Assembly (NCBI GenBank): GCA_945921465.1
Contig: CAMEKS010000007.1
Span: forward strand, 1 to 43,239
Origin: an uncultured Clostridia bacterium
GTDB taxonomy: Bacteria > Bacillota > Clostridia > Christensenellales > UBA1242
Length of the DNA: 43,239 nt
Direction of reading: 5' to 3'
In this document: positions 1-27,415 of the stretch, piece after piece
Position numbering within the stretch: the stretch's first letter is position 1
Layout of the letters: every line of letters starts with the position of its first letter
Program-made: the position numbers and the translations under genes
Notes under the pieces: model-generated
What the model saw: only the letters and a program-made list of their open reading frames with translations
What the model was told of the DNA's origin: nothing
Database searches by the model: none

Positions 1-3000
1 TCTGTTAACTTTGATGCAAAGACACAGACAGAGCAAGATCTAAATATATATGCACACAATTACACATCTAGTGCTAATCGTACTACGCAACTATTTGGTA
101 CTTATGTAACTTCATCTAATGGTACTAGAAGTTATAAGGATGTGGTGGCAATAGGTGGTATTGCTGGATACAACCAAGGTGCTATCATAGATAGTTACAA
201 CAAGGTAGATGTTACCAATAACACAACCAATGGTGCTGCGTTAATTGCTGGAGGTATAATTGGTTATGCAGACCAGGGCACATATATTGGCTACACCTAT
301 ACTACTGCCAATGTAATTGCTAAGCAAATTATTGGTGGATTAATCGGTTACTATCGATTAATAGAGTTAAATAAGGCTATCAATAATGACATTACAATAG
401 AACATTGTATTGCACTTAACCAATGGGATGGTCAGGTAGAGGCTATAATCAAGAACAACCTAAAGGGAGTATTTGGCAATGACCCAGTCGTAGTGCGTAT
501 GCCAGAACTTGGCAACCAAATGATGACCGATATTTATAAAACTGAGACATTAGAGAATACTTATAAATATGTATTAAATGTAACCAATAATGTGGCATAT
601 AATGTAGCAGTTGGTTCTCTGATAGGTACTATTGGTGGCAACAAGAGTATTACTAATAATGTAGATTATTTCACTGGCAGCTTCTTTACTAATAATAAAT
701 TGGCATTTGACAATATTTCTGCTATTAGTACTACATATGCTACATTCTACAAGACTGGCGAAGCAGGGAATGAGGCTAATTATTACGACAAATATCACAA
801 CCTTGCTGGCGCAGATGTATATTCTAGTGGTGTTACTAAGTGGGATCTAGGCTCAATTGTTAAGACTGCGATATCCGTAGAAGAAGCGACATATGTCTTG
901 ATTGATGACAAAGAAGAAATGCTTCTAGAAGGTAGCGGATATGAAGATACCAACATTATAACTAAGGTAGAATACGAAGCAAACATTAGCAAGTTTAAGG
1001 AAGGATATAAATCATTGTCTGATATGCTTGCTAATAATAAGTTAGTAATCATATCTCCTGCAGATGGCTACAGTCCAACTGAAGTATATTGCGATTACAA
1101 GTTTGATCGAATGTTTGAGAAAACTCAACAATTGCAGTTGCAGACAATTATTGGCTATTTCAATAACTTGGAAGAAATTAATAATGGCCAAAATAGCCAA
1201 GAGATTATAGACAAGAACAATTCGGTTAACTTGTTTGATAATGAGTATAACCAATATCAATACAAAGAGAATGGAGATAGAGATTATTCTAAAGAAGTAA
1301 TTAATATTGATGCTCGATTGGTGGATAGTAGCGAGGTATGGAAGATTCAACGCAACGGGTTCTTGCCAGAATATATTCGTGGCAATTATGAGCGAATAGT
1401 AATTGTCGATAGCACCGAAGACTTGATTTCTATGCTAAGCGACAGCGGAACTAACAAGATTTATCATATTTACAAGAATGATAAGAATTTAGCTGACATT
1501 AATTACAATATATATATTAATAACGAAAATTACACCTATAATTATGCTATGTTCAATAGCGTATTTAAGGGACAAATGATTGGTTATTATTATGACAATA
1601 ATGGTAGCGATAAGCAATCGGATAACAAAGATAATCGTCCTACTATCAATATATATACTGGCAACTCTAAGGGCTTATATTCTCTAATAAGTAGACTAGA
1701 TAGTGCATTGATAGATGGCGTTAACTTCCAGTTCTATATTCAGTATAATGAAGAATATATCAATGTACACGGCAATAGCGCAGGAGCATTTGGCTTACTT
1801 ACTCCTACTATGATATCTACCGATATACACAATGTAGATATATCCATATCTTCAACTTCTAATATCGTAAATCAAAACAAATTGACTCTTGTAGACGATG
1901 TGTCAGAAGAAGGACTATATAATGTCAAGAACTTTGGCCTATTTGCAGGCTCGTCTATTAATGGAACAATTAATAATGTAAATGTTGATATAAATACCGA
2001 TTTGCATATCACTACGGGTATATCTAATACAATTGGCGGATTTGTTGGATATGTGTCTGGTAATATCGTAAAAGATCTACATATCAATAATAATTCAAAT
2101 GGTAAAATGTCTATAGAAATAGACAATCGTAGGGCAGGTACTGGCGAATACTTGTATGTATCTACAGCAATGCCTAAGAACTATTACAACTCAATAACTA
2201 ATATTTCTAGTACTTTGCCTATCGCGGTAGGATACTATGTAGACAATGAGATAGAGCTAAGCAGTTATGGTATCAATTTCGATATTTATGTAGGTGGATT
2301 ATTTGCCAATACAATTGCAGGTAATATCAATACTGCATCATATGTGGCTAATGTTGATATCAACCTGTATAGAACAAGTTCGTCATTATCTTATTATTAT
2401 CTATACCTTGGTGCAATCTCTGGCAAAACAGCTGAATGCAGTATGACTGACTTGACCACATCAGGTAATATAGCTAACAAAGTTAATTTTAATAAATATA
2501 ATATTACAGCACAATATATCAATGCATATATAGGTGGATTAATTGGTTACAATGGCTCTAATTCTCCTATTAATGGTAGCACCAATAAGATTTATAGCAC
2601 TATTACTATCAAGCCACTAGGCATAAGCAGATATTATGTAGGTGGTGCTATAGGTTATAATGCTAATGGTAATAATACTACTAATAATAATATAATTGCT
2701 ATGGGCGATATATTGGTCGATACCAAAGAAAACATTTCTGCAGCTCAATTATTCCTAGGCGGAATAGTTGGCTACTCTGCATCGGGTTCATTCGATAATG
2801 TAACAACTACTGGGGACATCAAGACATATAATTCGGTTAATTTAACTAATGTATCCAATGCAACATACTATGTAGGTGGTATAGTAGGTTATGCTCGCAA
2901 TTGTACTATTACAGACTTTGAAGTATTGGGCGACATCTATTATGTCGTAGGATCCAACAACTACTATGCAGGCGTTATTGGATATTCTAAGAACACAGCT

Positions 3001-6000
3001 ATCAATCTGCAAAGAGGCAAATCTATTGCTAGATTCTATGCTAATCAGCCAGCTCAGGAGACTAAATACAATGCCAACTTGTATTCTATAGCCGAGAATT
3101 GCGTACAGCAATATACTACTCAGATAGTAGAGGAAAATGGCCAGCAAGTAGAGAAACAAATAAAGAATCCTTACTATACTGAAAAGGTATATTATATAGA
3201 GGAATTCTATGCTAAGTATGCTGATTTATACAATTCTTACGAATACTCATCTTCATACAACGGCACACAAGTATATTCGTATTATAATTTAAGCAAAATG
3301 AATATTAATAGTTATGATGAGGCCTTATTATCCAACAACTTATATCAAAAATTAAATCCTACAACTGTAACTGAGAATTCAGGTGATATTACAGAAGATA
3401 AATATTATATTATTAATGGTACTATTAGTAGTATTAAGGATGATTTTAATGGCGTAATTGCTGCTGATCCTAATAATAATACTGCTGATCCTAATAATAA
3501 TAATATTCAATCTATTACTAGTGGCACATTTGCTAATTCTTTAGATAGCAATGCTATTATAAGCGGAATCAAATTAAATGTTAGCAATGCTAGTGATATT
3601 ACTTCCAACTTTATCCCATTTGTTGGCACTAATAATGGTAGAATTATCAATTGTGTAACATTTGGCGAAGTTAGTGGAACTATTAATCCAGAGACTGAAG
3701 AGAATAATATCAAAGTTGTTACTTTTGTCAATGATAACAAAGGCGACATAGTCAGATCTGGCTCGGTAGTTACATTCACTGGTGCCTTCGGTAACAGTAA
3801 TGCCGAGAATAATAAACTAAAAGTGAATTATACTTATGTTAAGGATGCTGAGGGTAAGGATACTTCCACGATAGAGACTATCACAGCTACTCTGTCATTT
3901 ACAGGGCTAGTATATAATAATAAAGGTATGATATCTGACTGCTACTCACTAGTCAATGTCAACCATATTAACAAATCAACTACTCAAGATAGAGACTTGT
4001 TATTTATTAAGGACGGAGGCACTATTAAGACTGCCAAGGATATTAAATCTAGTCAACTTAATATCGCGGGGTTGGTGTATAATCAATATTCTCCATCTAA
4101 TCCTAATGCTAGCATCGGAATTTCTAACTCCTTCCATGCGGGCAAGATATTTGACACTACTACCAGTGCAATCAAATATTCTTATACCAATACTGGAATT
4201 GATGGTACACCTAGTGATACTACATTATTATCAACCAATCCTACCAATGCAATTAATGTATATGCTAATTCGTACAAGGACGATATTGAGGACGGAACTA
4301 ACCAGTACTTTGCAAACAATTCCATAACTAGTTGGCAAAATACTGAGGGGAACAAACAAAATACTATCTATGGTATAGATAACTGCGTCATCCCTAACAC
4401 TTACACCGGCAACGCTATTTGGGTTAAGACCAACAGCCGTGATGTTAACTATAATATGTATTATATTAACAACATCGCTATATCAAGCAATCCTAATAAT
4501 GTCAATACTGGCATCTCAGCAAAATTCGGTATTGAGACTAATACCGCGCAGACTTCAGTAGGCTATATAGATTCTAATGATAAGACTACTAAAGACATTT
4601 TGGATCAGTCATCTAATCTATATTCAGTCCCTGCAAGGGAACAATCAACTAAAGATCCTAACTTTGTATTGTTCCAAGATAAGTCTGATGCTATTATTGT
4701 CGAGACTAGTAGGGATTTGGCTAGATTGCTAAGAGACTATGCTAATAAGCCTTTGGATAATTCGGTTTATATAATAGCTGACGAGTTGGATATGTCGGGA
4801 TTGACCAACAATGGAGCCGGATTCAGTATCGGAAGCATTAAAGAGGACTGCGGTATTTACGGCATAGGCGGAAACCCTATTAGTACTAAAGATAATAAAT
4901 TCTATAGCCAAGGTACAATTATTAAGAACTTGAGTATTGCAAATTCTTTGGTGGGTGACAATAATGGTACAATCACAGGTATAGTATTAGAAAATGCTAC
5001 AGTCGTTAATTCAGACAATGCAACTGCAGTATTGGTCAACAGTAATAATGGAAGAATCTCAGGTGTGACAATTACTGGTGCAAAACTTACTGGTGGCAAA
5101 AATGCTAAATCAGTTGGCTTGGTGGCAGGCATTAACAATGGGACTATAGACAACATATATATTGGCGACTCAACCATATCCAAGGAGTATGGAACAGACT
5201 CTGATGTGATGGGCGGTGCAGTAGGTATTAACTATGGCAAGATGTTATACATATTTGCAGGCACTAGTTCCGAAGCTGATGGCAAAGGCATTATAATGTC
5301 TTATGCTGGCAACTATTCACTTGTAGCAGTAGGTGGATTGATAGGCAAGAATATTAAGAATACAAATCAACCAGATTCCCCAGACCCAATAGTAGACCAA
5401 TTAGGAATACATTTCTCTACCATTACGGCCAATAACTGTAGCAATGTCGGCGGTATCGTAGGCTATGGTGACTTGGATAATGGTGCAGAGATAGAGACTG
5501 CTCGTGCATATGTGTATTCTTCGTCTATTACAGGTAGGCAATATGTAGGCGGCATTGCAGGTCAATCTGCCCAACTTAATGGTGGTGATACTAGCGAAGG
5601 CGAGTATACGCTATTTGTATATAATTCTACTATTACAGCTACTGGTATATCTGATAGTGGCGCGTATGTGGGTGGTATTGTTGGTTCTATGTCTAAAGGT
5701 GAATTATCCAATGCCTATCTACTTAATGTCACTGTAAATGGTATTGATAATTATATTGGTGGCGTAGTTGGTAGTGCAGAAAGAGAAACAAGAAGCATAG
5801 ACAATATCATACTTCACAATATTACAGTTAATGCTAGTGGTAGCTATGTTGGTGGTTTGGTAGGTTATTCTATGGCCAATATATCTAATTGCACTATCAA
5901 TATTGTTAACGTTTCTAATACTTCAATCTCTGGCCAATATACAGCTGGTGCTATTGGATCTAATAATGGTGGTGAATTATCTAGTATTGCTATTAATAAT

Positions 6001-9000
6001 CTTGGCTCTGCAACTAATAACTCTATTTCTTCTGTTTATGCCAACACAATTAATAGAGCATATGTAGCAGGATTGGCTGGATACAATAGCGGAGCAGTTA
6101 GCAATTGCTCGATAGCGAATACTAATGTTTCCGCCAATGATGAGTTTGTTGCAGGTTTTATAGCATACAATAATTCTGAATCTAATGAGATCGAATTAAA
6201 TTGTGTGGCAGCCAATAACGAAACACTTCCAACTCTATCCAATATCAATGTTACTGTTGAAGTAGTAAAAGTAGGGGAGTCATTAACCACTAATGACTAT
6301 GTTGGCGGACTTTTTGGATATTTTAATTCAGGTAAAGTTACTGGCTCAGCTTCAATCACAGACATCACAATTACTGGTGGTCAATTTGTAGGTGGTGTCG
6401 CTGGCGCTAATAATGCTGAGATTAGTCCTACTAACATCACTATTAAAGGTATTGATATCCGTGCTCACCAGTGTGTTGGTGGTGCAGTGGGACAAGCAGA
6501 TGCAACAGTCAAAAATATTACAGTATTGGGTAAAGACGCAAGTAGTTATGCTACAATCAATGCGAGTTGGTATGTTGGTGGTATAGTAGGAAAAGCAACC
6601 AATCAAGATAACGAAATTAGTAATTGCAAAGTACAGTTTGCGACGATTACTTCTACCAACACTACTATGAAAGAATCTAATACAGTAGTAGAGGCTTATG
6701 CAGGTGGTATCGTAGGATTATCAAACAGCTCTATCAAAAATTCAATCGTGTCAGATATCACAGTTGTCGCTAGCGGATATTGTGTTGGTGGAATAGCTGG
6801 TTTGAGCAAAAAAGAGATCACTAATTCATTTGTTGACTCATCCATTGGAACAATTAACAATATCATTTCGTCTAGCGCAGGCGACTTTGTAGGCGGTGTT
6901 ACTGGTTATGCTGAAGGCGAAATATCCAATAGTGGTGCATACAATATCACTGTTTCTGGATACGCTATTTACGAAGCTGCTACAGATGATAGGGCTGCTG
7001 GATATTCATCATATGTCGGTGGTATAGCAGGCTACTCTAAGGCAAAGATAAGTAATGTCGTTGTCAGCACCACATCTTGGTCTATTTCTAATATCATCAC
7101 CTCTACCAAGTCGGATAGCAGATATATCGGTGGTATTGTGGGTTATTATGAAAGGCCAACAGGTCAAAGTGATTCACAACTAACTCAAATTACCGTAGCT
7201 AATACATCGATTAATGGTAATGCCAGTCAATATATTGGTGGTGTTGTAGGTTTTTATAGGGTCAAAGACACGTCAAGTAGCGTCGCTGAATCCGATATTG
7301 GTTATTATAGTACTGTAAATACACCAGATAATCTTAAAGCATTTATTCCAAACACAAATAATAACAAACAAACCATATTTAATGTCACTGTAGACGGTAA
7401 TCAATATATCGGCGGAATTATTGGTTCGGTATACACCTCAATTCCATTTACCTTAAGTAATATGGATCTATATAGCATCCGTGTCTCAGCATCTGGCAGT
7501 TATGTAGGTGGAGTCGTTGGTAGATTAACAAACGAGACGAGAGATGCCAGCGGAAAAGTAACAACAAAAGGTACTTCGACTATCTACGGAATCACTATAT
7601 CTGGCGGAAATACCGAGTCTACCTACTCATCAGTATTCTCATCTACAACAACTGGCCAATATGTAGGTGGCGTGGCTGGTTATGCAGATACATTGCTAGG
7701 AGGAATCAATACATCAAAAGGAATAATTGGGCATCAAATACAGGTATCCAACACCAAGATAGAGTCTGGTGCCAAGTATACTGGCGGTATCGTCGGATAT
7801 ACTAATTCTGTAGCAAACGATTATGAAGGAATCTATTCAGGCAAAGAAACGAATCATAATAATTACCTATTTGTCCTAGACAATATTAATATGGTAGTAG
7901 GTAATAGCGTGGCAGGTGGCGTAGCAGGACACGCCGACTATGTCAAAGGAATATTCCTAATGGAAAACTCTACTATCACCGCCTCTAGTACCACATCGAT
8001 TTCTAGAATAGGTGGTATGTTCGGTGAAATTATCGGTTCCTTGTATAGTGGATTAAGCAGTGGCAGCGGCCCTGCAATGCTGGCCAATTATAACACCATT
8101 ACAGTGAACAATGGTAGTAATGTGATTGGTACAGATGGGGCTGGTATTGGTGGTATTGTTGGCTACTTGGTGTATGAACAAGGTAGTAATATGACTAGTA
8201 TACTTGCCCAACAAGCAATCAAGTCTAATCAACTTACCTTAAATGTTAGTGGTTGCTATGTAGGTGGCGTATACGGATATGTCAAATCAGAGTATGTTAC
8301 TGATGATTGCAATGTATATAGTGGATATACATATGCCAGCACAATCAATTGCTCAGGTGTTGCCGAATATGTAGGCGGCGTAATTGGTAAAGCAGACCAA
8401 GCAAACCTATATAGAATGCTTGTAAACGATGTAATTATTAATGTTTCTGGCACATATGGCCACTATGTCGGCGGAATTGTTGGCGAATTAACAGGTAATA
8501 TCGAAGAAGCCACAGTATCTGAATGGGGTAATGGGCTATCCATTACCACTACAGGTAGATATGTGGGCGGTATTGCCGGCAAAGTAAAAGGCAAAATCAC
8601 TGGCAATATTTATTTGCTTAGCCAAGTTAGTATTACTTCCACATTCTCTGGCAACTACACGGTGACCGAAAATGGTCAAGGTGTAGGATTGACCAAGGTA
8701 TATGATGTGTATCTTGGTGGTGTAGTAGGTTATATTAGTGGTGAACTTGGAAAGGCAAACAAAACATCTGATAACAATCTAGTCAAGATTAAAAATATGA
8801 ATATATCTGCTTTGCAGGGTGTAGTAGGTGGCGTTGCAGGTTGGGCTGATTATATTTATAGCAATATAGATATACAAGGTATCAATATCAACTGTGCAGG
8901 ACAATCAGTAGGTGGCGTTGTTGGTTACCTTAACAAAGAAATGAAAGGCACAGGAGATAATACCTACGCCGCAGTCAAAATTCGTGGTATTAAGAATTTT

Positions 9001-12000
9001 GAAACAATCACAGGAGATCAATTTGTAGGTGGCATTACTGGTGGTGGAACAGTCCTAAAATATTATGATGGTTCAAATATCCGAACAATAACTGATACGA
9101 GCAAAGAATATACTTATAATGTTGTTCCAACGCAGTATATATACGGCAGTGAAGATGAAAGCAAAAAATATTTTGGTAAATCTCTATTAACCGATAGTAA
9201 TTTCCAAACTATCAAAAATATATATAATGGCAAAACCGTTAACTTTACATTTATGAAATCTGATCGCACAGTACTTGCAAATAATGTTCCTGTTACTAAT
9301 TTGGATGGTACATATAACTCATATAAAAATGATATTTATTACATATTATGTAGTGATGGTACAGAATACTCCAATGCGTACTTCAAAATTAATGATATAG
9401 TATATAATGTTAATAGTTATGCCGATAATAGTGGAAACCCTAAGGACAGTAAACTAATATTATATACCAGTGTAGGTACATATAAATTTGAACATACTTA
9501 TGATACTGCTACAGGTAATTCTGTATACATAGACGTACAAAATATAGCAAAGTCTATATCATTAGACAATATCGAATATGCACAATTTACTGATGGAAGT
9601 GGTAAAGTAATAGAAACTTATGGAATGGAAAATGTGGCAGGCTCTATACAGGATGAGAATGTTACTAAGTCAATATTGTCATACTTGTCTGAATTGGGTG
9701 ATGGAACGCTTATTTTATATAACAAATATGATAAGGTTGTTGCGCAATACAGGCAAAGAGATTTCAAGGCCAATGTAAATGGTACAAAGGCTGTAATAGA
9801 CAATATTCAAAATACCAATTGTCAATATGTTAAATATGTGACTGATGATAGCAAAATCTATGTATTTGGGCAATCATACACATATTCTAAGAATCATATC
9901 TATAATATGTATCTTAGCCTTGCCGAAAGGTTGGGAAATAATATAATTATTACTATTAAAGGACCAAAAGATACTAGTCCCCGTACTGTTTATGGTAGTA
10001 AATACAAGGATATATTGCAAGAAGTCAGAGAAAATGGATTGGATAAATTTGAAATTAATAGTGTTACTATCAAAGAAATAGAGCAAGGGTCTTTAGGTCA
10101 AGGTGGCAATAATTATTTCATCTCTGTAGACAACCTTAATATCGAAGCTAGCAACTATGTTGGTGGCGTAATAGGTTACTCTGGCAACAACGATAATATA
10201 GTAATAGATAACCAAGGTCACGTGGTTGGTTGTACTATCTCTGCCACAGGCGACTATGTGGGCGGCGTAGTAGGATTTGCTGCAGGCACCAACGCTATTA
10301 TAAGTGGCGTGTCAAAGGCAAATACTGTTACTGGTAAAGATTATGTCGGCGGATTTGCTGGATTGCATACTGGCGGAATAATTAATTCTTCGCAATATAG
10401 CACCGAAAACAATATATCTGGTAATATGTACATCGGTGGTGTAGTAGGACATACATCTGGCAATATGTCAGCCAAGATTGGCAATAGCAATATATCTGGT
10501 AAATCTTATGTGGGTGGTATTGCTGGTAGAATTGCTTCAACTGACACAGTAGAGTTTGGTACAACCTTTGTTAAGTCTAGTACTATAGAGGGTGAGACAT
10601 ATGTAGGTGGTATTGCGGGAAGTATAGAAGTAAAGAATACTTCTCAAAGATTGGATCAATATATTGGTATCTACGATAGTACTGTTAAGTCTATACTTAA
10701 CTCATCCGATACTTATACCTATGTAGGTGGAATCTTCGGCTATGCTAGTAGTAGTATTACTGATGTAACAAAAGGTATATTTATTAACCAAATAGAGACT
10801 ATCAATACGCTAGTCAATGGTGTATCTGGCGTAGGTGGCGTAGTCGGCGTAATGGCAGGAACACTAACTAGCGCTAGAGATAGCATTAAAAAAATCGGTG
10901 GAATCTATGTAATAGGCGACAAGTTTGGTAAATATGCTATTACTGGCAACTCTGGTGTAGGTGGAGTAATTGGTATATTGCAGAATTATTCTAATACTAG
11001 AGCAGGTTGGTACAAATCTAGTTCATTTGTAATGGATTACAAGATCGGCGACTTGGCTGCCAATAATGTTGGCGGCATTATAGGTTTGGCAATCAATGCG
11101 GGCGGCGGAATGGATGGCAGTATGCGTGTAGTCAATGGGCTTAATACGTCTACTGCGGCAGGTGGTTTGAGTCTAGGATATGGCACAGGCTCAATATCTC
11201 ATAACAATGTTGTTAATAATAATATGCAATATTCTACCGCTCCATCTTCGGATAATTTCTACATCCAAGGTAACTCTAATGTCGGCTCATTGGTCGGCGG
11301 TATAGATAATTCTGATAATAGATCTAAGAGTATTACTGTACCAAGACTTACCGCTAGTACTATTAATAGCAATGTTATAGGCAATAGCAATGTGGGTGGT
11401 TGGTTCGGTAGTGTTACTGGAGCTGATGTTACTGTTGCAAATTACAATGCGTCTAAGTCACCAGCAACAGACTTTGAAGCTAATGGATACTATGCTACAT
11501 CTATTCAAGCAACTGGTAATAATATAGGTGGTGTATTCGGATATATGTCAGATAGTTCTACCAATGGCAATATGTTTGTATTACCTACGATCAATGCTAC
11601 TTCGTCTAACTACTTAGGTGGTGCAATAGGTTATGCTATTAATACTGATGTATCTAATATATTTATAAATGGTTCTGAATCGTCCAAAGTATTTATTACT
11701 GGGCAGAACTATATAGGTGGTATTGCTGGGTACTTTGGCAGAGATGATGCTGACAAGTCCGCTATCATGACTAATTGCGGTATTACATATACTGCGGTTA
11801 AGGGCGACTCTATAGTAGGTGGCATAATTGGTCAGTGCGTCAATGCAGGAGTATCTAATGTAACTAACGACACCAACTCTACCGTAGATGGTAACCAATA
11901 TGTAGGCGGTATTATAGGATACTTGTATTCTACTGATGAATTGCCTACCGCAACTACCGTATCTTCTCTTAATATTATAGAAGACGAGTTTACTCCGGTA

Positions 12001-14211
12001 ATTAAGACATCGGTACTTGCAGCTAGTACGAGTGCAAAACTATATGCACACGTTTCTAATGTTACTAACAATTCTAATGTGACTGGAAATAAATATATTG
12101 GCGGTATAGTAGGTTATACCAACAAGGCAGTATTAGATGCTGATAGCGTAAGTTGTAATATAGAATCAGAAATCAGATATAATGGAGCATTTACCAAAGA
12201 TACTTTAATTGAGCCAAACATAGGATTAGATGAGAAATATCCTATTCATGATGAAAATTATGATGTTATAGAAGAATTTTCAATAAAAGATTTCCTAGAT
12301 GGGATATGCACTATAACAATTTATTTCTATAATGCAGCTGCAGAAAACCAAGAGGAACCAAATATACCTACCCTAAGTCCATATTATCACGATTCTTATA
12401 AAAATACTTATAGCCAAAGTCCTAATAAGGTTGAAATTCAAGCAAGTAAATTAACACTATCACAACTAATTAAAATGCTTTATTCAACTTATATGAACAT
12501 AACTTATAAAAACAGTGCACGGAATGGAATAGCTGTTGGTTATATCAATAAAATTGAAGTTAAGAGAACATATACTTATAAATATAACGAGCTTGTAGAT
12601 ACTCTTGATTCAGAAGGAGATTGGCGAACTGCTTTACCTATTGGACCAATTATTGGCAATGCATTTAATGATTGCGATTTGGCAGAAAGTAATAAATACA
12701 ATTATAACAATATGATAACAGATGGAGATTTTGATAGTGAAAAAATTAATGTATATGACTCTAATAACAATAAGCCTTTAAGTGAAAATAGCTTAAAAGA
12801 TTATGATATAAAGATAAAACAATATGAAGTTAAAGAAAAAAGTTTTGAAGCATCATTAACGCTATTGCCACTTAGCACCTATATGAGCGCTAATGCATTA
12901 ACAAATCGAAGTGTAGACTTGTGGGGAATACAAGAAAATACTGATGGTTCTATAAACCATGGAGTTAAACTTGATTTACATATTAATGAAAGTGATTACT
13001 CAATGTATGTTTATAAGAATTTAGTTACCATTAGTGATTCAATCACTAAGATGTGTGGAATTTCCGGTATTAAAGCTGAAAATGATTTGTTGTTTATTCA
13101 TGAAACAAGCAATTCTTCATTATATTTGGCAGATAATAGTTGTTTAGTACATTTTGAGAATGTTAAATTGGAATCAGATCCAAATAATAGCATGTATTAT
13201 AATTATTTTCAAAGAATTCCAACATATACAAATTCTTTCAGTTCTGATTTTGTAGCAACATGCAATCTTATAGAAAAAATAAAGCTCTATCAAACAGAGT
13301 ATTTAGCTAATGGTTTTAATCTAAAACATAAATACATACAAAATAGTTATGATTCAGATTTATATAATTTCAAATATGCAGAGATTGAATTAATAAACGC
13401 AGATGTTTGGAATCCATTAAATAATGATTCTGCTGGTGGATGGTGGGTAAAGAGAATAAGCAATGCAACTATTAGTTGTAATACAGAAATGACTGTTGGT
13501 AATTATATATATAAATTAACATGGTCTACGGGGTCTAGGATACCATTACCTACTGATTTAATAATAAGTGACAAACAGTATACAGAAAGTAATATAGGTA
13601 ATATATTGAAATTACAACAAGGCAATAGTGATTGCGTGGCTACCTCGTTTGCAATAGCAACAAGCGCCTTAGCAACAAGAAACAGAGATCATTTTGATAT
13701 AACAAACCTAATTGAAGGTAATGAATATTGCGATGGAAAATTTGGAGATGGCAATACCAATTCTACGTTAAAAAATATTTGGAAACAGCAAGGATTTGTT
13801 TCTGGAGATAATGTATCCTATACAGGAACTCCAGAAAAATTAAAAAATTATTATAGTGTTTATTATGATCATTATGAAACCAATCCATATTTCCAAACAT
13901 TATTTGCAAAAGATAAGCTAAATCAAGGATGTGTATTGGTTTTGGTTTTCAAGTATAAACATAGCCCAACAACTGCTACATATGATGGTACTCATGCTAT
14001 AGTTATATATAAAAGTGTTGGTAATTATATTAATTATATAGATCCTTCAATGACATTATTTGCCAATAAAAATAAAGTAGATGGAACTATAAATTACAAT
14101 AAGCTTACACTAGATGACCTTTTAACAGATATTAGTACCCTAGTAAGATCTGAAAAAATTTATTACTATAATAGTCAATTAAAAGCTATAAATGTGTTAA
14201 GAGTGGCATAA
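1..14211 (+). CDS. Giant GLUG-repeat surface/secreted protein, 5'-truncated by window edge, with C-terminal C39/papain-like cysteine peptidase domain
   Basis: Frame 1 is open from base 1 (SVNFDAKTQTEQDLNIYAHNYTSS...), so the listed ATG at 142 is internal. Dozens of YVGGIVGY/YIGGIVGY-type GLUG motifs; TAA stop at 14209-14211, followed by a hairpin. Confidence 0.9.
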   Translation, partial: SVNFDAKTQTEQDLNIYAHNYTSSANRTTQLFGTYVTSSNGTRSYKDVVAIGGIAGYNQGAIIDSYNKVDVTNNTTNGAALIAGGIIGYADQGTYIGYTYTTANVIAKQIIGGLIGYYRLIELNKAINNDITIEHCIALNQWDGQVEAIIKNNLKGVFGNDPVVVRMPELGNQMMTDIYKTETLENTYKYVLNVTNNVAYNVAVGSLIGTIGGNKSITNNVDYFTGSFFTNNKLAFDNISAISTTYATFYKTGEAGNEANYYDKYHNLAGADVYSSGVTKWDLGSIVKTAISVEEATYVLIDDKEEMLLEGSGYEDTNIITKVEYEANISKFKEGYKSLSDMLANNKLVIISPADGYSPTEVYCDYKFDRMFEKTQQLQLQTIIGYFNNLEEINNGQNSQEIIDKNNSVNLFDNEYNQYQYKENGDRDYSKEVINIDARLVDSSEVWKIQRNGFLPEYIRGNYERIVIVDSTEDLISMLSDSGTNKIYHIYKNDKNLADINYNIYINNENYTYNYAMFNSVFKGQMIGYYYDNNGSDKQSDNKDNRPTINIYTGNSKGLYSLISRLDSALIDGVNFQFYIQYNEEYINVHGNSAGAFGLLTPTMISTDIHNVDISISSTSNIVNQNKLTLVDDVSEEGLYNVKNFGLFAGSSINGTINNVNVDINTDLHITTGISNTIGGFVGYVSGNIVKDLHINNNSNGKMSIEIDNRRAGTGEYLYVSTAMPKNYYNSITNISSTLPIAVGYYVDNEIELSSYGINFDIYVGGLFANTIAGNINTASYVANVDINLYRTSSSLSYYYLYLGAISGKTAECSMTDLTTSGNIANKVNFNKYNITAQYINAYIGGLIGYNGSNSPINGSTNKIYSTITIKPLGISRYYVGGAIGYNANGNNTTNNNIIAMGDILVDTKENISAAQLFLGGIVGYSASGSFDNVTTTGDIKTYNSVNLTNVSNATYYVGGIVGYARNCTITDFEVLGDIYYVVGSNNYYAGVIGYSKNTAINLQRGKSIARFYANQPAQETKYNANLYSIAENCVQQYTTQIVEENGQQVEKQIKNPYYTEKVYYIEEFYAKYADLYNSYEYSSSYNGTQVYSYYNLSKMNINSYDEALLSNNLYQKLNPTTVTENSGDITEDKYYIINGTISSIKDDFNGVIAADPNNNTADPNNNNIQSITSGTFANSLDSNAIISGIKLNVSNASDITSNFIPFVGTNNGRIINCVTFGEVSGTINPETEENNIKVVTFVNDNKGDIVRSGSVVTFTGAFGNSNAENNKLKVNYTYVKDAEGKDTSTIETITATLSFTGLVYNNKGMISDCYSLVNVNHINKSTTQDRDLLFIKDGGTIKTAKDIKSSQLNIAGLVYNQYSPSNPNASIGISNSFHAGKIFDTTTSAIKYSYTNTGIDGTPSDTTLLSTNPTNAINVYANSYKDDIEDGTNQYFANNSITSWQNTEGNKQNTIYGIDNCVIPNTYTGNAIWVKTNSRDVNYNMYYINNIAISSNPNNVNTGISAKFGIETNTAQTSVGYIDSNDKTTKDILDQSSNLYSVPAREQSTKDPNFVLFQDKSDAIIVETSRDLARLLRDYANKPLDNSVYIIADELDMSGLTNNGAGFSIGSIKEDCGIYGIGGNPISTKDNKFYSQGTIIKNLSIANSLVGDNNGTITGIVLENATVVNSDNATAVLVNSNNGRISGVTITGAKLTGGKNAKSVGLVAGINNGTIDNIYIGDSTISKEYGTDSDVMGGAVGINYGKMLYIFAGTSSEADGKGIIMSYAGNYSLVAVGGLIGKNIKNTNQPDSPDPIVDQLGIHFSTITANNCSNVGGIVGYGDLDNGAEIETARAYVYSSSITGRQYVGGIAGQSAQLNGGDTSEGEYTLFVYNSTITATGISDSGAYVGGIVGSMSKGELSNAYLLNVTVNGIDNYIGGVVGSAERETRSIDNIILHNITVNASGSYVGGLVGYSMANISNCTINIVNVSNTSISGQYTAGAIGSNNGGELSSIAINNLGSATNNSISSVYANTINRAYVAGLAGYNSGAVSNCSIANTNVSANDEFVAGFIAYNNSESNEIELNCVAANNETLPTLSNINVTVEVVKVGESLTTNDYVGGLFGYFNSGKVTGSASITDITITGGQFVGGVAGANNAEISPTNITIKGIDIRAHQCVGGAVGQADATVKNITVLGKDASSYATINASWYVGGIVGKATNQDNEISNCKVQFATITSTNTTMKESNTVVEAYAGGIVGLSNSSIKNSIVSDITVVASGYCVGGIAGLSKKEITNSFVDSSIGTINNIISSSAGDFVGGVTGYAEGEISNSGAYNITVSGYAIYEAATDDRAAGYSSYVGGIAGYSKAKISNVVVSTTSWSISNIITSTKSDSRYIGGIVGYYERPTGQSDSQLTQITVANTSINGNASQYIGGVVGFYRVKDTSSSVAESDIGYYSTVNTPDNLKAFIPNTNNNKQTIFNVTVDGNQYIGGIIGSVYTSIPFTLSNMDLYSIRVSASGSYVGGVVGRLTNETRDASGKVTTKGTSTIYGITISGGNTESTYSSVFSSTTTGQYVGGVAGYADTLLGGINTSKGIIGHQIQVSNTKIESGAKYTGGIVGYTNSVANDYEGIYSGKETNHNNYLFVLDNINMVVGNSVAGGVAGHADYVKGIFLMENSTITASSTTSISRIGGMFGEIIGSLYSGLSSGSGPAMLANYNTITVNNGSNVIGTDGAGIGGIVGYLVYEQGSNMTSILAQQAIKSNQLTLNVSGCYVGGVYGYVKSEYVTDDCNVYSGYTYASTINCSGVAEYVGGVIGKADQANLYRMLVNDVIINVSGTYGHYVGGIVGELTGNIEEATVSEWGNGLSITTTGRYVGGIAGKVKGKITGNIYLLSQVSITSTFSGNYTVTENGQGVGLTKVYDVYLGGVVGYISGELGKANKTSDNNLVKIKNMNISALQGVVGGVAGWADYIYSNIDIQGININCAGQSVGGVVGYLNKEMKGTGDNTYAAVKIRGIKNFETITGDQFVGGITGGGTVLKYYDGSNIRTITDTSKEYTYNVVPTQYIYGSEDESKKYFGKSLLTDSNFQTIKNIYNGKTVNFTFMKSDRTVLANNVPVTNLDGTYNSYKNDIYYILCSDGTEYSNAYFKINDIVYNVNSYADNSGNPKDSKLILYTSVGTYKFEHTYDTATGNSVYIDVQNIAKSISLDNIEYAQFTDGSGKVIETYGMENVAGSIQDENVTKSILSYLSELGDGTLILYNKYDKVVAQYRQRDFKANVNGTKAVIDNIQNTNCQYVKYVTDDSKIYVFGQSYTYSKNHIYNMYLSLAERLGNNIIITIKGPKDTSPRTVYGSKYKDILQEVRENGLDKFEINSVTIKEIEQGSLGQGGNNYFISVDNLNIEASNYVGGVIGYSGNNDNIVIDNQGHVVGCTISATGDYVGGVVGFAAGTNAIISGVSKANTVTGKDYVGGFAGLHTGGIINSSQYSTENNISGNMYIGGVVGHTSGNMSAKIGNSNISGKSYVGGIAGRIASTDTVEFGTTFVKSSTIEGETYVGGIAGSIEVKNTSQRLDQYIGIYDSTVKSILNSSDTYTYVGGIFGYASSSITDVTKGIFINQIETINTLVNGVSGVGGVVGVMAGTLTSARDSIKKIGGIYVIGDKFGKYAITGNSGVGGVIGILQNYSNTRAGWYKSSSFVMDYKIGDLAANNVGGIIGLAINAGGGMDGSMRVVNGLNTSTAAGGLSLGYGTGSISHNNVVNNNMQYSTAPSSDNFYIQGNSNVGSLVGGIDNSDNRSKSITVPRLTASTINSNVIGNSNVGGWFGSVTGADVTVANYNASKSPATDFEANGYYATSIQATGNNIGGVFGYMSDSSTNGNMFVLPTINATSSNYLGGAIGYAINTDVSNIFINGSESSKVFITGQNYIGGIAGYFGRDDADKSAIMTNCGITYTAVKGDSIVGGIIGQCVNAGVSNVTNDTNSTVDGNQYVGGIIGYLYSTDELPTATTVSSLNIIEDEFTPVIKTSVLAASTSAKLYAHVSNVTNNSNVTGNKYIGGIVGYTNKAVLDADSVSCNIESEIRYNGAFTKDTLIEPNIGLDEKYPIHDENYDVIEEFSIKDFLDGICTITIYFYNAAAENQEEPNIPTLSPYYHDSYKNTYSQSPNKVEIQASKLTLSQLIKMLYSTYMNITYKNSARNGIAVGYINKIEVKRTYTYKYNELVDTLDSEGDWRTALPIGPIIGNAFNDCDLAESNKYNYNNMITDGDFDSEKINVYDSNNNKPLSENSLKDYDIKIKQYEVKEKSFEASLTLLPLSTYMSANALTNRSVDLWGIQENTDGSINHGVKLDLHINESDYSMYVYKNLVTISDSITKMCGISGIKAENDLLFIHETSNSSLYLADNSCLVHFENVKLESDPNNSMYYNYFQRIPTYTNSFSSDFVATCNLIEKIKLYQTEYLANGFNLKHKYIQNSYDSDLYNFKYAEIELINADVWNPLNNDSAGGWWVKRISNATISCNTEMTVGNYIYKLTWSTGSRIPLPTDLIISDKQYTESNIGNILKLQQGNSDCVATSFAIATSALATRNRDHFDITNLIEGNEYCDGKFGDGNTNSTLKNIWKQQGFVSGDNVSYTGTPEKLKNYYSVYYDHYETNPYFQTLFAKDKLNQGCVLVLVFKYKHSPTTATYDGTHAIVIYKSVGNYINYIDPSMTLFANKNKVDGTINYNKLTLDDLLTDISTLVRSEKIYYYNSQLKAINVLRVA
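142..12130 (+). repeat. Degenerate GLUG-motif protein repeat region
   Basis: Recurring [YF][VI]GG[IVA][VIA]G[YX] motifs spaced about 30-70 residues apart, ending around NKYIGGIVGYTNKAVLD. Confidence 0.85.
13609..14208 (+). other. C39/papain-like cysteine peptidase domain at the C-terminus of the giant protein
   Basis: LQQGNSDCVATSFAIA (Gln codon 13618, Cys codon 13633), GTHAIVIYKSVGNYINYIDPS (His codon 13993, Asp codon 14041): the Q...DC / H / D layout of C39-like peptidases. Confidence 0.6.
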
Positions 14212-14230
14212 TTTTATGTTAGTCGCTTAA

Positions 14231-14270
14231 AAAAAATCTCATTGATGTATGTTCATCAATGAGATTTTTT
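14231..14270. terminator. Bidirectional intrinsic terminator between convergent genes
   Basis: Perfect 17-bp inverted repeat AAAAAATCTCATTGATG-tatgtt-CATCAATGAGATTTTTT. Confidence 0.9.
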
Positions 14271-14285
14271 TGTGAAAAGAAATTA

Positions 14286-14942
14286 CTACTTATTTATTTC
14301 AGATTCCATTTTGAAATCTTTGTAGTATTGAATTTTATCGCCGTTATATGGTGTATCTGAAGAATTAACTACGTCAAAGAATTGATCCTTATCTTTTTGC
14401 TCGTCAAAGCATTTATCACAAAAATAATAATCAGTATTAGATATTTGTTGAAAGGGTTGATCACAGAAAATGTAAAAGTGACTGTTGTTATAATCAACAT
14501 ATGTATTGGAAAAATTATCCATATTGTCATTATCTATTCCACAACCCAAAATCATTCTTAAGTTATTATCCTTATCTGTTTGAAAAATAGTGTTAAATTT
14601 ATGAATAACTGCGTTATTGATACTGTCATTATAAATGGCACAATAACTAAAGTTTCTCATTTTTTGTTCAGAGATAACATTATAAATTTTTCTAAAATCT
14701 AGTGGATTAGGGAAATCGAAATCGATATGTTTTTCGATGGTTGGCTCGCAGGTGCAAGCTGGTTGAACTGGCTCGGTTGTTTGGCTAGTGCTAGGTGCAG
14801 AGGTAATATCACTGACGCTAGTGCTAGGCTCTGTATTTGAGGTAGAGATTGTGGTCTCGGCTGGTTTGTTGCCCATACAAGATGTTAGCAACATAGTAGC
14901 AAGGCTTAGGGCAGATAATTTTGCTATTGTTTCTTTTTTCAT
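14286..14942 (-). CDS. Lipoprotein, Cys-signature family member 1
   Basis: Signal peptide with lipobox (LLTSC), Ser/Thr linker, LGCGIDND and YYFCDKCFD motifs shared with three neighbouring genes; AAAGGA RBS and sigma-A-like promoter upstream. Confidence 0.85.
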   Translation of the reverse strand: MKKETIAKLSALSLATMLLTSCMGNKPAETTISTSNTEPSTSVSDITSAPSTSQTTEPVQPACTCEPTIEKHIDFDFPNPLDFRKIYNVISEQKMRNFSYCAIYNDSINNAVIHKFNTIFQTDKDNNLRMILGCGIDNDNMDNFSNTYVDYNNSHFYIFCDQPFQQISNTDYYFCDKCFDEQKDKDQFFDVVNSSDTPYNGDKIQYYKDFKMESEINK

Positions 14943-15002
14943 AATTATTTTTTCCTTTGGATATATATTTATGGGTACTATACTCCCATATTTCTCATAG
15001 TA

Positions 15003-15030
15003 ATTGTACCACCGATTTTTTGTTTGTCAA
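15003..15030 (-). promoter_or_regulatory. Sigma-A-type promoter of lipoprotein 1
   Basis: Minus strand TTGACA (15025-15030), 16-nt spacer, TACAAT (15003-15008). Confidence 0.75.
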
Positions 15031-15206
15031 TACCTTGGCAAAAAATACCTTGTCACATTTTTGTTCAAAAACTCGATTATGTTAGTCGCTATTTTGTCGT
15101 ATTTTGTCGAAATTGACAAATATGGATGGTTTGCTTAGTAGTATCGACAGCTATTATGTTAACAGTAGGTTGACTGGTGTAAATTGGTTTTGGCGTGCAT
15201 AAATTA

Positions 15207-15243
15207 TAAAAGAATTCCCAACGTTAAGTTAGGAATTCTTTTT
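15207..15243 (-). terminator. Intrinsic terminator downstream of lipoprotein 2
   Basis: AAAAGAATTCC...GGAATTCTTTT inverted repeat just 3' of the 15254-15892 gene. Confidence 0.75.
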
Positions 15244-15253
15244 ATTATATAGT

Positions 15254-15892
15254 CTACTTTTCAATTTCAAGTTCAGATTCCATTTTGAAATCTATCTCAG
15301 GTGAAATATAATACCATTCTAAGTTTTTAGCACCTGCTTTTGATACTTCTTCTTTAAACTTTCTTATGTCATCTTCATTATTAAAACATGAATCGCATAG
15401 ATATACTTTATTACTAGGACATATACGGTCTATACTTGTGGATTGAGATGGAGCAAATTCAGATTTATATAGATTGTTTATTTCATCATTAGGTGTGTTG
15501 TCACGTCCACAAGCTAGAGTATAAACATAATGTGTTCTAAATTCAGAAATATCTTTACCATATGTGTCATAACAACATAAATCTCTAAATTTATGATAAA
15601 CAATACCTTCCTTTACGTTTTGATCAATTTTGAATCCAATAAATTCGTATGGTTCTACATGTTCTAATACATCTAAATTATGAATATTTTTATTATTTTT
15701 CATAATTTCAACTGGATCGGGATAATCAAAATCTATATGGTTAGTAGTTATTGGCTCGGTTGTTTGGCTAGTGCTAGGTTCTGTATTTGAGGTAGAGATT
15801 GTGGTCTCGGCTGGTTTGTTGCCCATACAAGATGTTAGCAACATAGTAGCAAGGCTTAGGGCAGATAATTTTGCTATTGTTTCTTTTTTCAT
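15254..15892 (-). CDS. Lipoprotein, Cys-signature family member 2
   Basis: N-terminal ~42 residues identical to lipoprotein 1 (MKKETIAKLSALSLATMLLTSCMGNKPAETTISTSNTEPSTS); LACGRDN and YLCDSCFN motifs. Confidence 0.85.
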   Translation of the reverse strand: MKKETIAKLSALSLATMLLTSCMGNKPAETTISTSNTEPSTSQTTEPITTNHIDFDYPDPVEIMKNNKNIHNLDVLEHVEPYEFIGFKIDQNVKEGIVYHKFRDLCCYDTYGKDISEFRTHYVYTLACGRDNTPNDEINNLYKSEFAPSQSTSIDRICPSNKVYLCDSCFNNEDDIRKFKEEVSKAGAKNLEWYYISPEIDFKMESELEIEK

Positions 15893-15952
15893 AACTATTT
15901 TTTCCTTTGGATATATATTTATGGGTGCTATACTCCCATATCTGTCGTAATA

Positions 15953-15980
15953 ATTGTACCACCAATTATTTGTTTGTCAA
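15953..15980 (-). promoter_or_regulatory. Sigma-A-type promoter of lipoprotein 2
   Basis: Minus strand TTGACA (15975-15980), 16-nt spacer, TACAAT (15953-15958); nearly identical to the lipoprotein 1 promoter. Confidence 0.75.
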
Positions 15981-16116
15981 TACCTTGGCAAAAAATACCT
16001 TGTCCCATTTTTGTTCAAAAACTCGATTATGTTAGTCGCTATTATGTCGTTTTTTTGTCGAAATTGACAAATGTGGATATGTTGTGGCAGTTATTGATGG
16101 AGAATAGTGGACAAAA

Positions 16117-16152
16117 AAATCTCTAATCAAAGTGTTAATTGATTAGAGATTT
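16117..16152 (-). terminator. Intrinsic terminator downstream of lipoprotein 3
   Basis: AAATCTCTAATCAA...TTGATTAGAGATTT 14-bp stem, T-run on the minus strand. Confidence 0.85.
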
Positions 16153-16159
16153 GAGTCTA

Positions 16160-16996
16160 TTATTCCATTTCTGGTTCTGCTGGTTCTACTTTTTCTTCTG
16201 ATGTTGCGTCAGATGTAGCAAAGTACGCCTCTTTGGCTTCTTTTAATTTGGCCAATTCCGAAGCATATTTTACCTTGAAATATTTATCTCTAAATTTTTG
16301 CTTCATAGGGGAATCGTTAATGTTACTAGCATATCCAAATAGGAAAATCATCATATTGTCATCCATACATTTGTCGCAGAAGTACATATAACTTTTGTTT
16401 GCGATTTCTTCAGGTATTTCGCAATAATCATAGATGCTGTTGTCATAATTAACATAAGTGTGCTCAAATTTATCCTTGTCGTCATTATCCAGACCGCAAC
16501 CTAGTACAAAGTGGTCAAACTTGGCATTAGGCGCTTCGGTGGTAGACTCTGTGGTAGACTCTGCAATTGATTCTTGTTCATTATCCTTGCCGGTAAAGAT
16601 AGTATTGTATGTATGTACAACTACGCTCTTCATATCTTTATCATATACTAGGCAAAATTTTATGCCCGAAGTCCTATATTTTACATACAATTCCTTTAGT
16701 TCGTCTAGATCTACTGGGTTAGGAAAGTTGAAGTCACTATAATCTGGTACTGTAATTTCTGTGGTTTCAGTGGTCTCAACTGGTTCAGTAGTTATGATAG
16801 GCTCGGTTGTGATAATAGCTTCACTGGTGGTCTCTACTGGCTCGGATGTATTCTTAGTAACTACTGTGGTCTTGGTAGGTTCGGTAATGGTTGTGTCGGT
16901 TGTGGTAGCATCATTTGGCTTGTGTTGATTGCACGCAGTTAGCAAAGCAGCAGAAAGCATTAGTGCAGATAGTTTAGTCAATGTTTCTTTTTTCAT
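16160..16996 (-). CDS. Lipoprotein, Cys-signature family member 3, with long Thr-rich linker
   Basis: Lipobox LLTAC; TTEPV/IITTEP-type Thr/Glu/Pro linker; LGCGLDNDDKDKFEHTYVNYDNS and YFCDKCMD motifs. Confidence 0.85.
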   Translation of the reverse strand: MKKETLTKLSALMLSAALLTACNQHKPNDATTTDTTITEPTKTTVVTKNTSEPVETTSEAIITTEPIITTEPVETTETTEITVPDYSDFNFPNPVDLDELKELYVKYRTSGIKFCLVYDKDMKSVVVHTYNTIFTGKDNEQESIAESTTESTTEAPNAKFDHFVLGCGLDNDDKDKFEHTYVNYDNSIYDYCEIPEEIANKSYMYFCDKCMDDNMMIFLFGYASNINDSPMKQKFRDKYFKVKYASELAKLKEAKEAYFATSDATSEEKVEPAEPEME

Positions 16997-17108
16997 AATC
17001 TATTCTTCCTTTCTTTATTTGGTGGTAATGATATCTAAGAAATTATATTCTGCTAATTTAATTATATCGGTAATTGCTAGATATCTATTGCCAATAATTT
17101 GTAATATG

Positions 17109-17136
17109 ATTGTATCACTGATTTTCAATTTGTCAA
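17109..17136 (-). promoter_or_regulatory. Sigma-A-type promoter of lipoprotein 3
   Basis: Minus strand TTGACA (17131-17136), 16-nt spacer, TACAAT (17109-17114). Confidence 0.7.
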
Positions 17137-17248
17137 TAGACGACAATAAAAAATCTCGTTATGATGGCCTATACATATAGTAATGTGGCTAATTTGCATA
17201 TATTATTAGAAGCACTACTATCGGTGATATTGATACACAAAACTTAAT

Positions 17249-17818
17249 TTATCTCTCTAGTTCGGATAGAGAGCGATAGCCTAGCGACTCGTGATTAACA
17301 ATATTTGATACAGGATAAATATTTTCTTCGGGGTAGCCATAGTTCATAGTGTGATAGTATTGTTGCACCTTGGCACTATCATTGATGTGGTTAGGCGATT
17401 GTATATCAAAACATTTATCGCAAAGATATAGGTTGAAATTAACCAAGTCATCTGCCGAAAAATGGAACATATCGCCGCATTCTTCTTTGTGTTGGTCTAG
17501 TATGTAAGTATTCTCGTACTTATCCGTTGGGTTATTGTCTAACTGACAGTCTAGGTTAAGATATTCTACATTGGGCACATTAACATTTTGTCTAATTGCT
17601 TTTGCAGAGTGAACAACAATATCACTAAAGCCATTGGTTACTATTCCGCAGTACAATTCTTTGCCTTGTTGTCTGCTAGCGATTGTGACCATAGATGGGT
17701 CTTGCACAGGTTCGTATTTAATTAGGTTGTCCTCATTGTTTTTGGTTGTGCTTTGACTAAGTAATTGTAGCAAGATTGCTGATGTAGCAATAGCTCCGAT
17801 TATTTTTGATTTTGTCAT
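17249..17818 (-). CDS. Secreted/membrane-anchored Cys-signature family member 4 (no lipobox Cys)
   Basis: N-terminal hydrophobic segment (IIGAIATSAILLQLL); LDCQLDNNPTDKYENTYI and YLCDKCFD motifs shared with the three lipoproteins. Confidence 0.75.
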   Translation of the reverse strand: MTKSKIIGAIATSAILLQLLSQSTTKNNEDNLIKYEPVQDPSMVTIASRQQGKELYCGIVTNGFSDIVVHSAKAIRQNVNVPNVEYLNLDCQLDNNPTDKYENTYILDQHKEECGDMFHFSADDLVNFNLYLCDKCFDIQSPNHINDSAKVQQYYHTMNYGYPEENIYPVSNIVNHESLGYRSLSELER

Positions 17819-17847
17819 GTTATTTATCTCCTATTATTGTTCAGAAT

Positions 17848-17875
17848 ATTGTACCACCGAATTTTTGTTTGTCAA
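17848..17875 (-). promoter_or_regulatory. Sigma-A-type promoter of family member 4
   Basis: Minus strand TTGACAAACAAAAATTCGGTGGTACAAT; TTGACA-N16-TACAAT, nearly identical to the lipoprotein 1 promoter. Confidence 0.75.
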
Positions 17876-17969: not shown

Positions 17970-19139
17970 ATGAGAAAAATATTATGTGCAATAATTGTTA
18001 TGTTGTTGATGTTGTCTGCCGTAGTTACTGGGCAGGTCAATGCCAGCACTAATGGTGCGACAATTGGGGCCTTTGATAATTTTTCCTCCACTAGTTATAT
18101 ACTAATGGATGCTGGCACTGGCAAAGTACTTGTCAATTTTAACGAAGAAGAGCGTGTGCCAGTAGCAAGTATTTGCAAACTTATGACTAGCCTACTTACG
18201 TTAGAAGCAATAGAGCGTGGTGACATTAGCCTAGAGACCATGGCTCTGGCCAGCGAACACGCTTGCGAGGTAGAGGGTAGTCAGGCATTCTTGGATGCGG
18301 GCAGTCAGTATAGTGTGGCGGACTTGCTTAAGAGTGTAGTAGTGGCATCTGCCAATGATAGTGCGATTGTATTAGCAGAACTGATTGGAGGTACCGAGGA
18401 GAGGTTTGTAGACAAGATGAATTTGCGAGCGAACGAGTTGGGGATGAACAATACTCATTACACCAATTCAACCGGCTTAACAACTATAGACCAATATAGT
18501 ACTGCCTACGACACATGCTTGATCCTTAGAGCAATCAATGGATATGCAACATATCAAGAATATGCCAAGATATGGATGGATAACCTTACTCATCCATCCG
18601 GTAGGGTAACCGAACTGGTTAATACCAATAGACTAATAAGATATTATCCGTATTGTGTAGACGGCAAGACTGGTTTTACAGACGAGGCAGGCTATTGCCT
18701 AAGTAGTGTAGCAGAAAAGGACGGTGTTAAGCTAGTTGCAGTAGCATTGCATTGCAAAGATGCCGCCAGTCGTTTTTTGGAAGTAAAAGACTTGTTTAAT
18801 TATGGGTTTGCTACATTTACTAATAGACTGGTATTGGCGGCTGATGACTACAATGCCGAAGTTGCTGTAACTGGCGGAGATATCAGTAAAGCAGCAATTG
18901 GATTATCTAATGACTTGAAGTATCTAGCCGATAAGTCAGATAATAGCGAATATAGTGTAGTATACAATATTCCTAATAGTATCGATGCCCCTAGGAGTTC
19001 AGGAGATGTAGTTGGTACGGTGGATGTGCTATTAGGTGATGAGGTTGTCTCAAGTGCCGACATTGTACTATTGCAAGACATATCTAAGCAAAATTTATGG
19101 AATGTTTTGCAGAAGATATTTGCTGATTGGGCTATTTAA
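17970..19139 (+). CDS. dacF: D-alanyl-D-alanine carboxypeptidase (peptidase S11, low-molecular-mass PBP)
   Basis: Signal peptide, SxxK (ASICKLM), SxN (SANDS), KTG (DGKTGFTDEAGYC) motifs; GAGAGGAG RBS. Confidence 0.88.
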   Translation: MRKILCAIIVMLLMLSAVVTGQVNASTNGATIGAFDNFSSTSYILMDAGTGKVLVNFNEEERVPVASICKLMTSLLTLEAIERGDISLETMALASEHACEVEGSQAFLDAGSQYSVADLLKSVVVASANDSAIVLAELIGGTEERFVDKMNLRANELGMNNTHYTNSTGLTTIDQYSTAYDTCLILRAINGYATYQEYAKIWMDNLTHPSGRVTELVNTNRLIRYYPYCVDGKTGFTDEAGYCLSSVAEKDGVKLVAVALHCKDAASRFLEVKDLFNYGFATFTNRLVLAADDYNAEVAVTGGDISKAAIGLSNDLKYLADKSDNSEYSVVYNIPNSIDAPRSSGDVVGTVDVLLGDEVVSSADIVLLQDISKQNLWNVLQKIFADWAI

Positions 19140-22400: not shown

Positions 22401-22963
22401 AGAACTCTGTCACAATGACTGTAACCGAAGGTAGTGATTATTGCACATTTGCAGCAACTCAGGGTACTTATACTATTACTTGGGCTGATTCTAAGAATAC
22501 TGTTTCTAAGTCTATTACTATCTATGTAGGTGACTGCGATGCTCCAGAACTTACTTGGAATGAAGAAGTTCCATCTACTATCAAGTTAGGTGAGAAATGG
22601 GGTGCTAACCTTAAAGATATGTATACAATCACAGATGTTAATAATGGCGTAACTTCTACTATTACCGCTAAGGAGATTAAGATTACTGCTCCAGACAATA
22701 CTAAGACAGTATTAAGTGGAAGCGAAAATTATACTTTCTCTCAAGAAGGTGATTATAAATTAACCATTACTTATACCGATGGTGTTAATGATCGTACAGA
22801 GACTAAGACTATTAAGGTAACTTCGGACACAACCGAGGCTGCTACTAATACTTCTAATGTAGTTGGTACTATATTGCTTATTGCATCAATCTTAGTAGTT
22901 GGTGGCGTAATAGTATACTTGATTGTTAGCAGCAGAAAGAAAGTGAATAAATCTAAGAAATAA
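19477..22963 (+). pseudogene. Ig-like-domain surface protein with C-terminal TM anchor, interrupted by a single frameshift
   Basis: Frame 1 ORF 19477-22176 (signal peptide, Ig-like repeats) ends abruptly. Frame 2, open from 22133, continues the same protein style to a C-terminal TM and KKVNKSKK tail at 22963. No RBS supports a separate start at 22316. Confidence 0.75.
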
Positions 22964-23068
22964 GCATTACTAATATCTTAGTTTGTTGTTTATTGCTATA
23001 TAATATTTTGATAATTTTGTTGGCTTATAATTAAATAAAAACAATAATTCTTTAATAAATTAAATTAT

Positions 23069-23104
23069 AAAAAATTGTGCGAAATCGCTTGCACAATTTT
23101 TTTG
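23069..23104 (+). terminator. Intrinsic terminator after the Ig-like surface protein gene
   Basis: AAAAAATTGTGC-gaaatcgctt-GCACAATTTTTT. Confidence 0.85.
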
Positions 23105-23707
23105 TCGTTTTTTTGCTATTTTGGCTTTTATACCAATTTACTTTACTAATAACTGTATTTTTAGTACAATACAAATGAGTAGTTATAAAGGTCTGTTTAG
23201 CGTTGTGAAGTATGTTTGTTAATAATTTTGTATTTGGTATATAGATAATTATTATGTTATATTTTTTTGACGAATATTTCTTTTGTTATTTTAATACATA
23301 ATATAACGCTTTTATCTCAACAATATATCAGCCAATCAACATAACTATTTGCAATTTGGATAAACTATTATTAGAACGTTTTATAAAAAATTTTGATCGT
23401 TGAATGCCTGATTTTACGTTCTATATTAGATGCTAATAATTATTATCAATTTGATACTTAATTAACTATTTTGTAGAATAATAATTGACAATGTCAGCAA
23501 CAAGTTTAAGCGAGGCAATACAATCTCTTAAGCTTATCTACTGCTAACACATCAAATTGTTTGCAAAGCATACTCATGGCTAATATTTTATTTCTACAAT
23601 AATCTAACAACGCTATAATTTTACATATTATCAATCTACATTTTGAATTAATATAGTTATATAAATACCTTAATAAGTCATCCAACATCTACTACTTCGG
23701 AGGAAAT

Positions 23708-27408: not shown

Positions 27409-27415
27409 AGGGTAG

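Follow-up and report, generated by a model that had tools for sequence, protein, structure and literature searches.

The window, a stretch of 43,239 nucleotides from contig CAMEKS010000007.1 of an uncultured Clostridia bacterium, carries four small genes, w1 to w4, which are genuine open frames on the minus strand spanning 14286-17818 (Table 1). They lie between the 3' part of a giant surface-protein gene with GLUG motifs and a PF00768 carboxypeptidase gene, dacF, as an earlier sequence-only reading of this DNA had correctly described. Since the frame of the giant is open to the first base of the contig (1-141), its true start cannot be the GTG listed at 142. Downstream of dacF, large plus-strand frames of 899, 892, 340, and 490 aa occupy 19477-28888 and have little or no Pfam support.

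Table 1. Positions of the genes, domains, and regulatory elements at the w1-w4 locus in the window.
Feature	Position	Strand	Description
Giant GLUG surface protein, 3' part	142..14211	+	Convergent with the cluster; start beyond the contig
Giant C-terminal domain	13558..14205	+	Invariant Cys and Asp, nearby His; no Pfam match
w1	14286..14942	-	218 aa; lipoprotein (LTSC lipobox), Ser/Thr/Pro linker, His-Cys3 domain
w1 promoter, signal peptide, and linker cassette	14817..15128	-	96% identical to 15767-16078 (w2)
w1 promoter	15003..15030	-	TTGACA-16-TACAAT with TG (11/12)
Terminator-like hairpin	15208..15242	-	After w2, before w1
w2	15254..15892	-	212 aa; lipoprotein (LTSC), export cassette as in w1, diverged His-Cys3 domain
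w2 promoter	15953..15980	-	
Terminator-like hairpin	16117..16152	-	After w3
w3	16160..16996	-	278 aa; lipoprotein (LTAC lipobox), long Thr/Glu/Pro linker, His-Cys3 domain
w3 promoter	17109..17136	-	
w4	17249..17818	-	189 aa; secreted or membrane-anchored, hydrophobic N-terminus, His-Cys3 domain
w4 promoter	17848..17875	-	
dacF, D-alanyl-D-alanine carboxypeptidase	17970..19139	+	PF00768 and PF07943; conserved neighbor

By direct reading of the N-termini, w1, w2, and w3 each have a signal peptide with a lipobox ([LVI]-x-[SAG]-C), and no lipobox cysteine was found in w4. This agrees with the three lipoproteins and one hydrophobic N-terminus reported earlier and supports the cell-surface location suggested there, from which we infer surface exposure. 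The cores of the four proteins are 30-42% identical over their aligned parts, the w1 core being closest to that of w3 (42%). Compared with shuffled controls, the w1-w3 pair gave the strongest relatedness (Z = 26), four other pairs gave Z = 8-12, and the w2-w3 pair alone was marginal (Z = 3.5); w2 is tied to its paralogs via w1 and w4 (Z 8). The Cys signature claimed to be common to the four minus-strand paralogs was thus recovered, with L-x-C, D-N, and Y-x-C-D-x-C invariant in all four window proteins; the pair previously written CDxC is the CxxC referred to below. As had also been noticed, the upstream Cys within [YF]C-x-[IV]-[YV] is found in three proteins only, w1, w3, and w4. V-x-H is likewise among the invariant core residues of the four-sequence alignment, and the w3 domain carries a Thr/Ser-rich insert.

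Each of the four genes has its own near-consensus promoter, TTGACA-16-TACAAT with a TG before the second hexamer, and the region originally singled out ends at 17875, the first base of the w4 -35 box. The perfect pattern TTGACA-N12/13-TGnTAnAAT occurs 14 times in the 1.17-Mb genome, and 4 of these 14 are the w1-w4 promoters. In the window, five TTGACA/TAnAAT pairs were seen versus 0.34 expected. Promoters of this kind would be expected to give strong expression. The gap separating w1 from the convergent giant (14212-14285) contains a hairpin with A- and T-runs on its two sides, probably a two-way terminator. The stretch of identity shared by w1 and w2 extends over 312 bases, starting in the promoter region and reaching codon 42; 125 of 126 coding nucleotides are identical in this 5' part, but the cores are only 35% identical. 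Since a near-identical export cassette is joined to diverged domains, the cluster is mosaic, a pattern that would be expected from gene conversion or cassette exchange.

To locate the locus in relatives, nearly all of which are metagenome assemblies, dacF was used as an anchor. Among the 26 loci scanned, the giant together with a lipoprotein gene was found in two sister species of the same genus only, G003 and G007. Both have one family gene, at the same spot and in the same direction as the window cluster, and in both the order is the giant GLUG protein, the convergent small gene, and then dacF, with a transketolase-like gene upstream of the giant. The place of the family between the giant and dacF is therefore fixed in three species. 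In the other relatives read, which are Clostridia or Clostridiales bacteria, many of them from ruminant gut, dacF is preceded by other genes (by inspection, a recN / spoIVB-like / spoIIM-like group, large lipoproteins, or a phosphorylase-like gene), with neither giant nor family gene. With a single gene in either sister, the cluster of four is a local expansion.

The G003 protein (361 aa) has an SSC lipobox and two tandem copies of the domain, and the G007 protein (185 aa) has a single one. Their genes have promoters similar to those in the window, TTGACAAATGAAAAAACTGTGATAGAAT in G003 and TTGACAAACTAAAAATCCGTGTTACAAT in G007. Scored with the profile of the four window proteins alongside 20,000 shuffles, the sister domains ranked 3rd-5th; profile-profile alignment of the sister and window domains gave a probability of 89 and a P of 2e-6. 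The kinship is moderate by sequence alone, and strong when synteny, orientation, lipoprotein-type N-termini, and promoter are taken together. Between species, dacF is 61-63% identical, the giants about 31-36%, and the family cores about 17-29%; the fast divergence of the cores shows weak constraint or diversification. A contaminant origin of the contig in its bin was rejected, since its dacF shows this identity to same-genus genomes and its giant has same-genus orthologs.

Seven domains were available for alignment, four from the window, two in tandem from G003, and one from G007. Since MAFFT, given only the sister domains, put the Cys residues of G007 wrongly, a joint alignment was used. Only four columns were invariant, one His and three Cys, giving the signature H-x15-38-C-x27-45-C-x2-C, an invariance read from few sequences and from an alignment made partly on the Cys residues. 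The invariant His, within [VT][IVY]H, had been overlooked in the sequence-only reading. This pattern lies in the right range in all seven sequences, versus 1-10% per sequence by shuffling, a figure that is indicative only because the pattern was picked after the sequences had been viewed. The expectation that all Cys residues would be conserved did not hold, since three Cys persist in the sister-species homologs and the fourth invariant residue is His; in these wider homologs, conservation extends to the LxC and CxxC cysteines but not to the upstream Cys.

All four invariant residues are typical zinc ligands, and the metal site raised earlier as a possibility gained support, as three conserved Cys with a His would fit a metal better than a disulfide network. 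That extracellular thiols are open to oxidation could count against a metal. The competing view is that these are disulfide-stabilized secreted domains, in which the cysteines pair with each other, no metal is bound, and the His is incidental. The proteins are indeed exported. Moreover, a loop Cys accompanies the upstream Cys in w1, w3, and w4, and both are absent from g3b of G003 and from the G007 domain (g7), while g3a has the upstream Cys without the loop Cys; the co-occurrence suggests that this pair probably forms a disulfide. However, three universal Cys would leave one unpaired, g7 contains exactly three Cys, and the His is no less invariant than the universal Cys. The odd number of conserved Cys argues against a pure disulfide network, and we regard such a network as rather unlikely.

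Neither Pfam nor NCBIfam gave any family member a match above a curated cut-off, and searches of PHROGs, PADLOC, and PDB sequences gave scattered weak single-member matches only, which support no known family. The proposal of an undescribed family is borne out by these searches. The matches to Pfam DsbG_N (0.005) and zf-MYST (0.037) and to PADLOC ThsB (6.5e-4, 17.7 bits; w3 only), each low-scoring and confined to a single member, were rejected because none was common to the paralogs. In 309 other genomes of the same taxonomic family and a sample of 395 from the order, only chance matches were found once they were read. The best of the weak HMM matches in other genomes (E 0.0004-0.06) likewise proved on reading to be due to chance, falling in non-coding frames or in unrelated genes that lack the motif. 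Pattern scans yielded 72 candidates in GTDB genomes and 13 in IMG/VR, none of which was confirmed. Homologs beyond the three species were thus not found in the same-family and order genomes, in GTDB (about half of its species were covered), or in IMG/VR. None of the protein databases searched contains the family, which is confined to three related species as far as these searches reached. A literature search returned nothing relevant on GLUG proteins with lipoproteins or adhesins, nor on extracellular zinc fingers. Decaying or spurious reading frames without function might be suspected from the failure to find homologs outside the three species in the genomes and databases searched; but the frames stay open in all three, where they also retain separate promoters, signal peptides, and the invariant residues, and this explanation is highly improbable.

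AlphaFold2 models were of low confidence, both for full w1 (pLDDT 47) and for the first G003 domain (pLDDT 63). Both place a beta-hairpin first and a helix directly after the CxxC, and neither contains a metal; in the low-confidence G003-domain model, the His lies within the beta-hairpin and the CxxC just ahead of the C-terminal helix. Foldseek with the low-confidence model gave nothing significant in PDB (E <= 0.001) or BFVD. In treble-clef fingers, the knuckle and the helix start supply two ligands each (PMC4999995). The beta-hairpin and the C-terminal helix with CxxC at its start, as seen in the low-confidence model, are like a treble clef, whereas the family lacks the CPXCG knuckle, its first two ligands are H and C at 15-38 residues apart, its domains are exported, and no fold match was obtained from that model. 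Since the helix half would fit, going by the low-confidence models, and the knuckle half does not, we suggest that the module may act in the way of a zinc finger but do not class it as one.

Two other H...C...CxxC arrangements were compared. The repeat proteins of Arthrobacter phages (for example, Pureglobe5 gene 107) share the H-C-C-x2-C order and occur in tandem copies as in G003, but they are intracellular-looking and have shorter spacers, and no profile similarity to the family was found (P 0.03-0.06). Gene 107 itself (L092 371-902), annotated as hypothetical, carries tandem H...C...CxxC repeats, which are a possible undescribed zinc-finger repeat family. DUF3039 (PF11238) is an H...C...CxxC finger; none of the 13 genomes of the genus contains it, and no family member matched it. 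The CPTC/CDKC at the predicted helix start also resembles, by inspection, a thioredoxin-type motif, as a thiol-disulfide oxidoreductase using its CxxC would have. However, the CxxC lies about 20-31 residues before the domain end as cut here, so the strands and helices that follow CxxC in thioredoxin folds are missing, and neither profile searches nor Foldseek of the low-confidence model returned a thioredoxin match. An oxidoreductase is scarcely probable.

The giant is complete in the sisters, with 8,428 codons in G003 (L114 2232 to L038 11512) and 9,182 in G007 (L115 12864 to L039 2336). Both start with lipoprotein-like signals (GIGC and LVGC), and the giant gene alone takes up more than 2% of genomes of about 1.1 Mb. 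In the three species, its C-terminal domain has an invariant Cys, an Asp-Pro, and a nearby His; by inspection it looks papain-like, and no Pfam or PDB match was found. Weak matches to this domain in G201, G091, and G135 were unrelated. The domain and the small genes co-occur in 3/3 species having either, among about 310 genomes of the taxonomic family, so that the association with a GLUG giant proposed earlier extends to every species that has the small family. Since this is one locus in three relatives, it probably reflects one evolutionary event.

The small proteins could then be accessory, inhibitor, or immunity proteins for the cysteine-peptidase-like domain, since a giant with this Cys...His...Asp C-terminal domain adjoins the family in all three species, giant and small genes both evolve fast, and gene number varies as in immunity arrays. 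An immunity gene would be looked for downstream in the transcription unit of the giant, but w1-w4 are convergent to it and have separate promoters, unlike toxin-immunity operons. Furthermore, a locus shared by three related genomes may reflect common descent only, and the peptidase assignment comes from three residues without a family match. A role of this kind seems quite unlikely. We also regard as unlikely, to a slightly lesser degree, a clade-specific system in which a giant lipoprotein (about 8,400-9,200 aa in the sisters) with a peptidase-like tip is bound or regulated by an array of small, rapidly diversifying, metal-centered lipoproteins, and in which the small domain would represent a new exported His-Cys3 fold.

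The reading we favor, and hold to be somewhat probable, is that w1-w4 are small surface proteins, each with an exposed domain that a single metal ion, probably zinc, would hold together. Three of the four would be lipid-anchored on flexible Thr/Ser/Pro stalks, and the metal, as predicted from the invariant residues, would be bound by the His, a Cys, and the CxxC. With constraint on the metal core alone, the domain would serve as a fast-changing display or binding module, and candidate partners lie on the host-gut side (host glycans or proteins), in other microbes, in phage, or in the adjoining giant. The cluster resembles rapidly diversifying arrays of surface lipoprotein paralogs in that its export part is constant and its exposed part variable, and in its local duplication and mosaic history. 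It differs in that the exposed part is a probable metal-centered mini-domain, and no phase-variable switch or silent cassettes, as in such arrays, were seen here.

The locus shows that unannotated surface proteins in gut Clostridia with small genomes can part with almost all of their sequence similarity and still keep the locus, the promoter, the export cassette, and four putative metal ligands, which accounts for the orphan status given to such genes by similarity searches. Should the metal site prove real, it would be unusual for an exported His-Cys3 mini-domain to serve as a variable display module.
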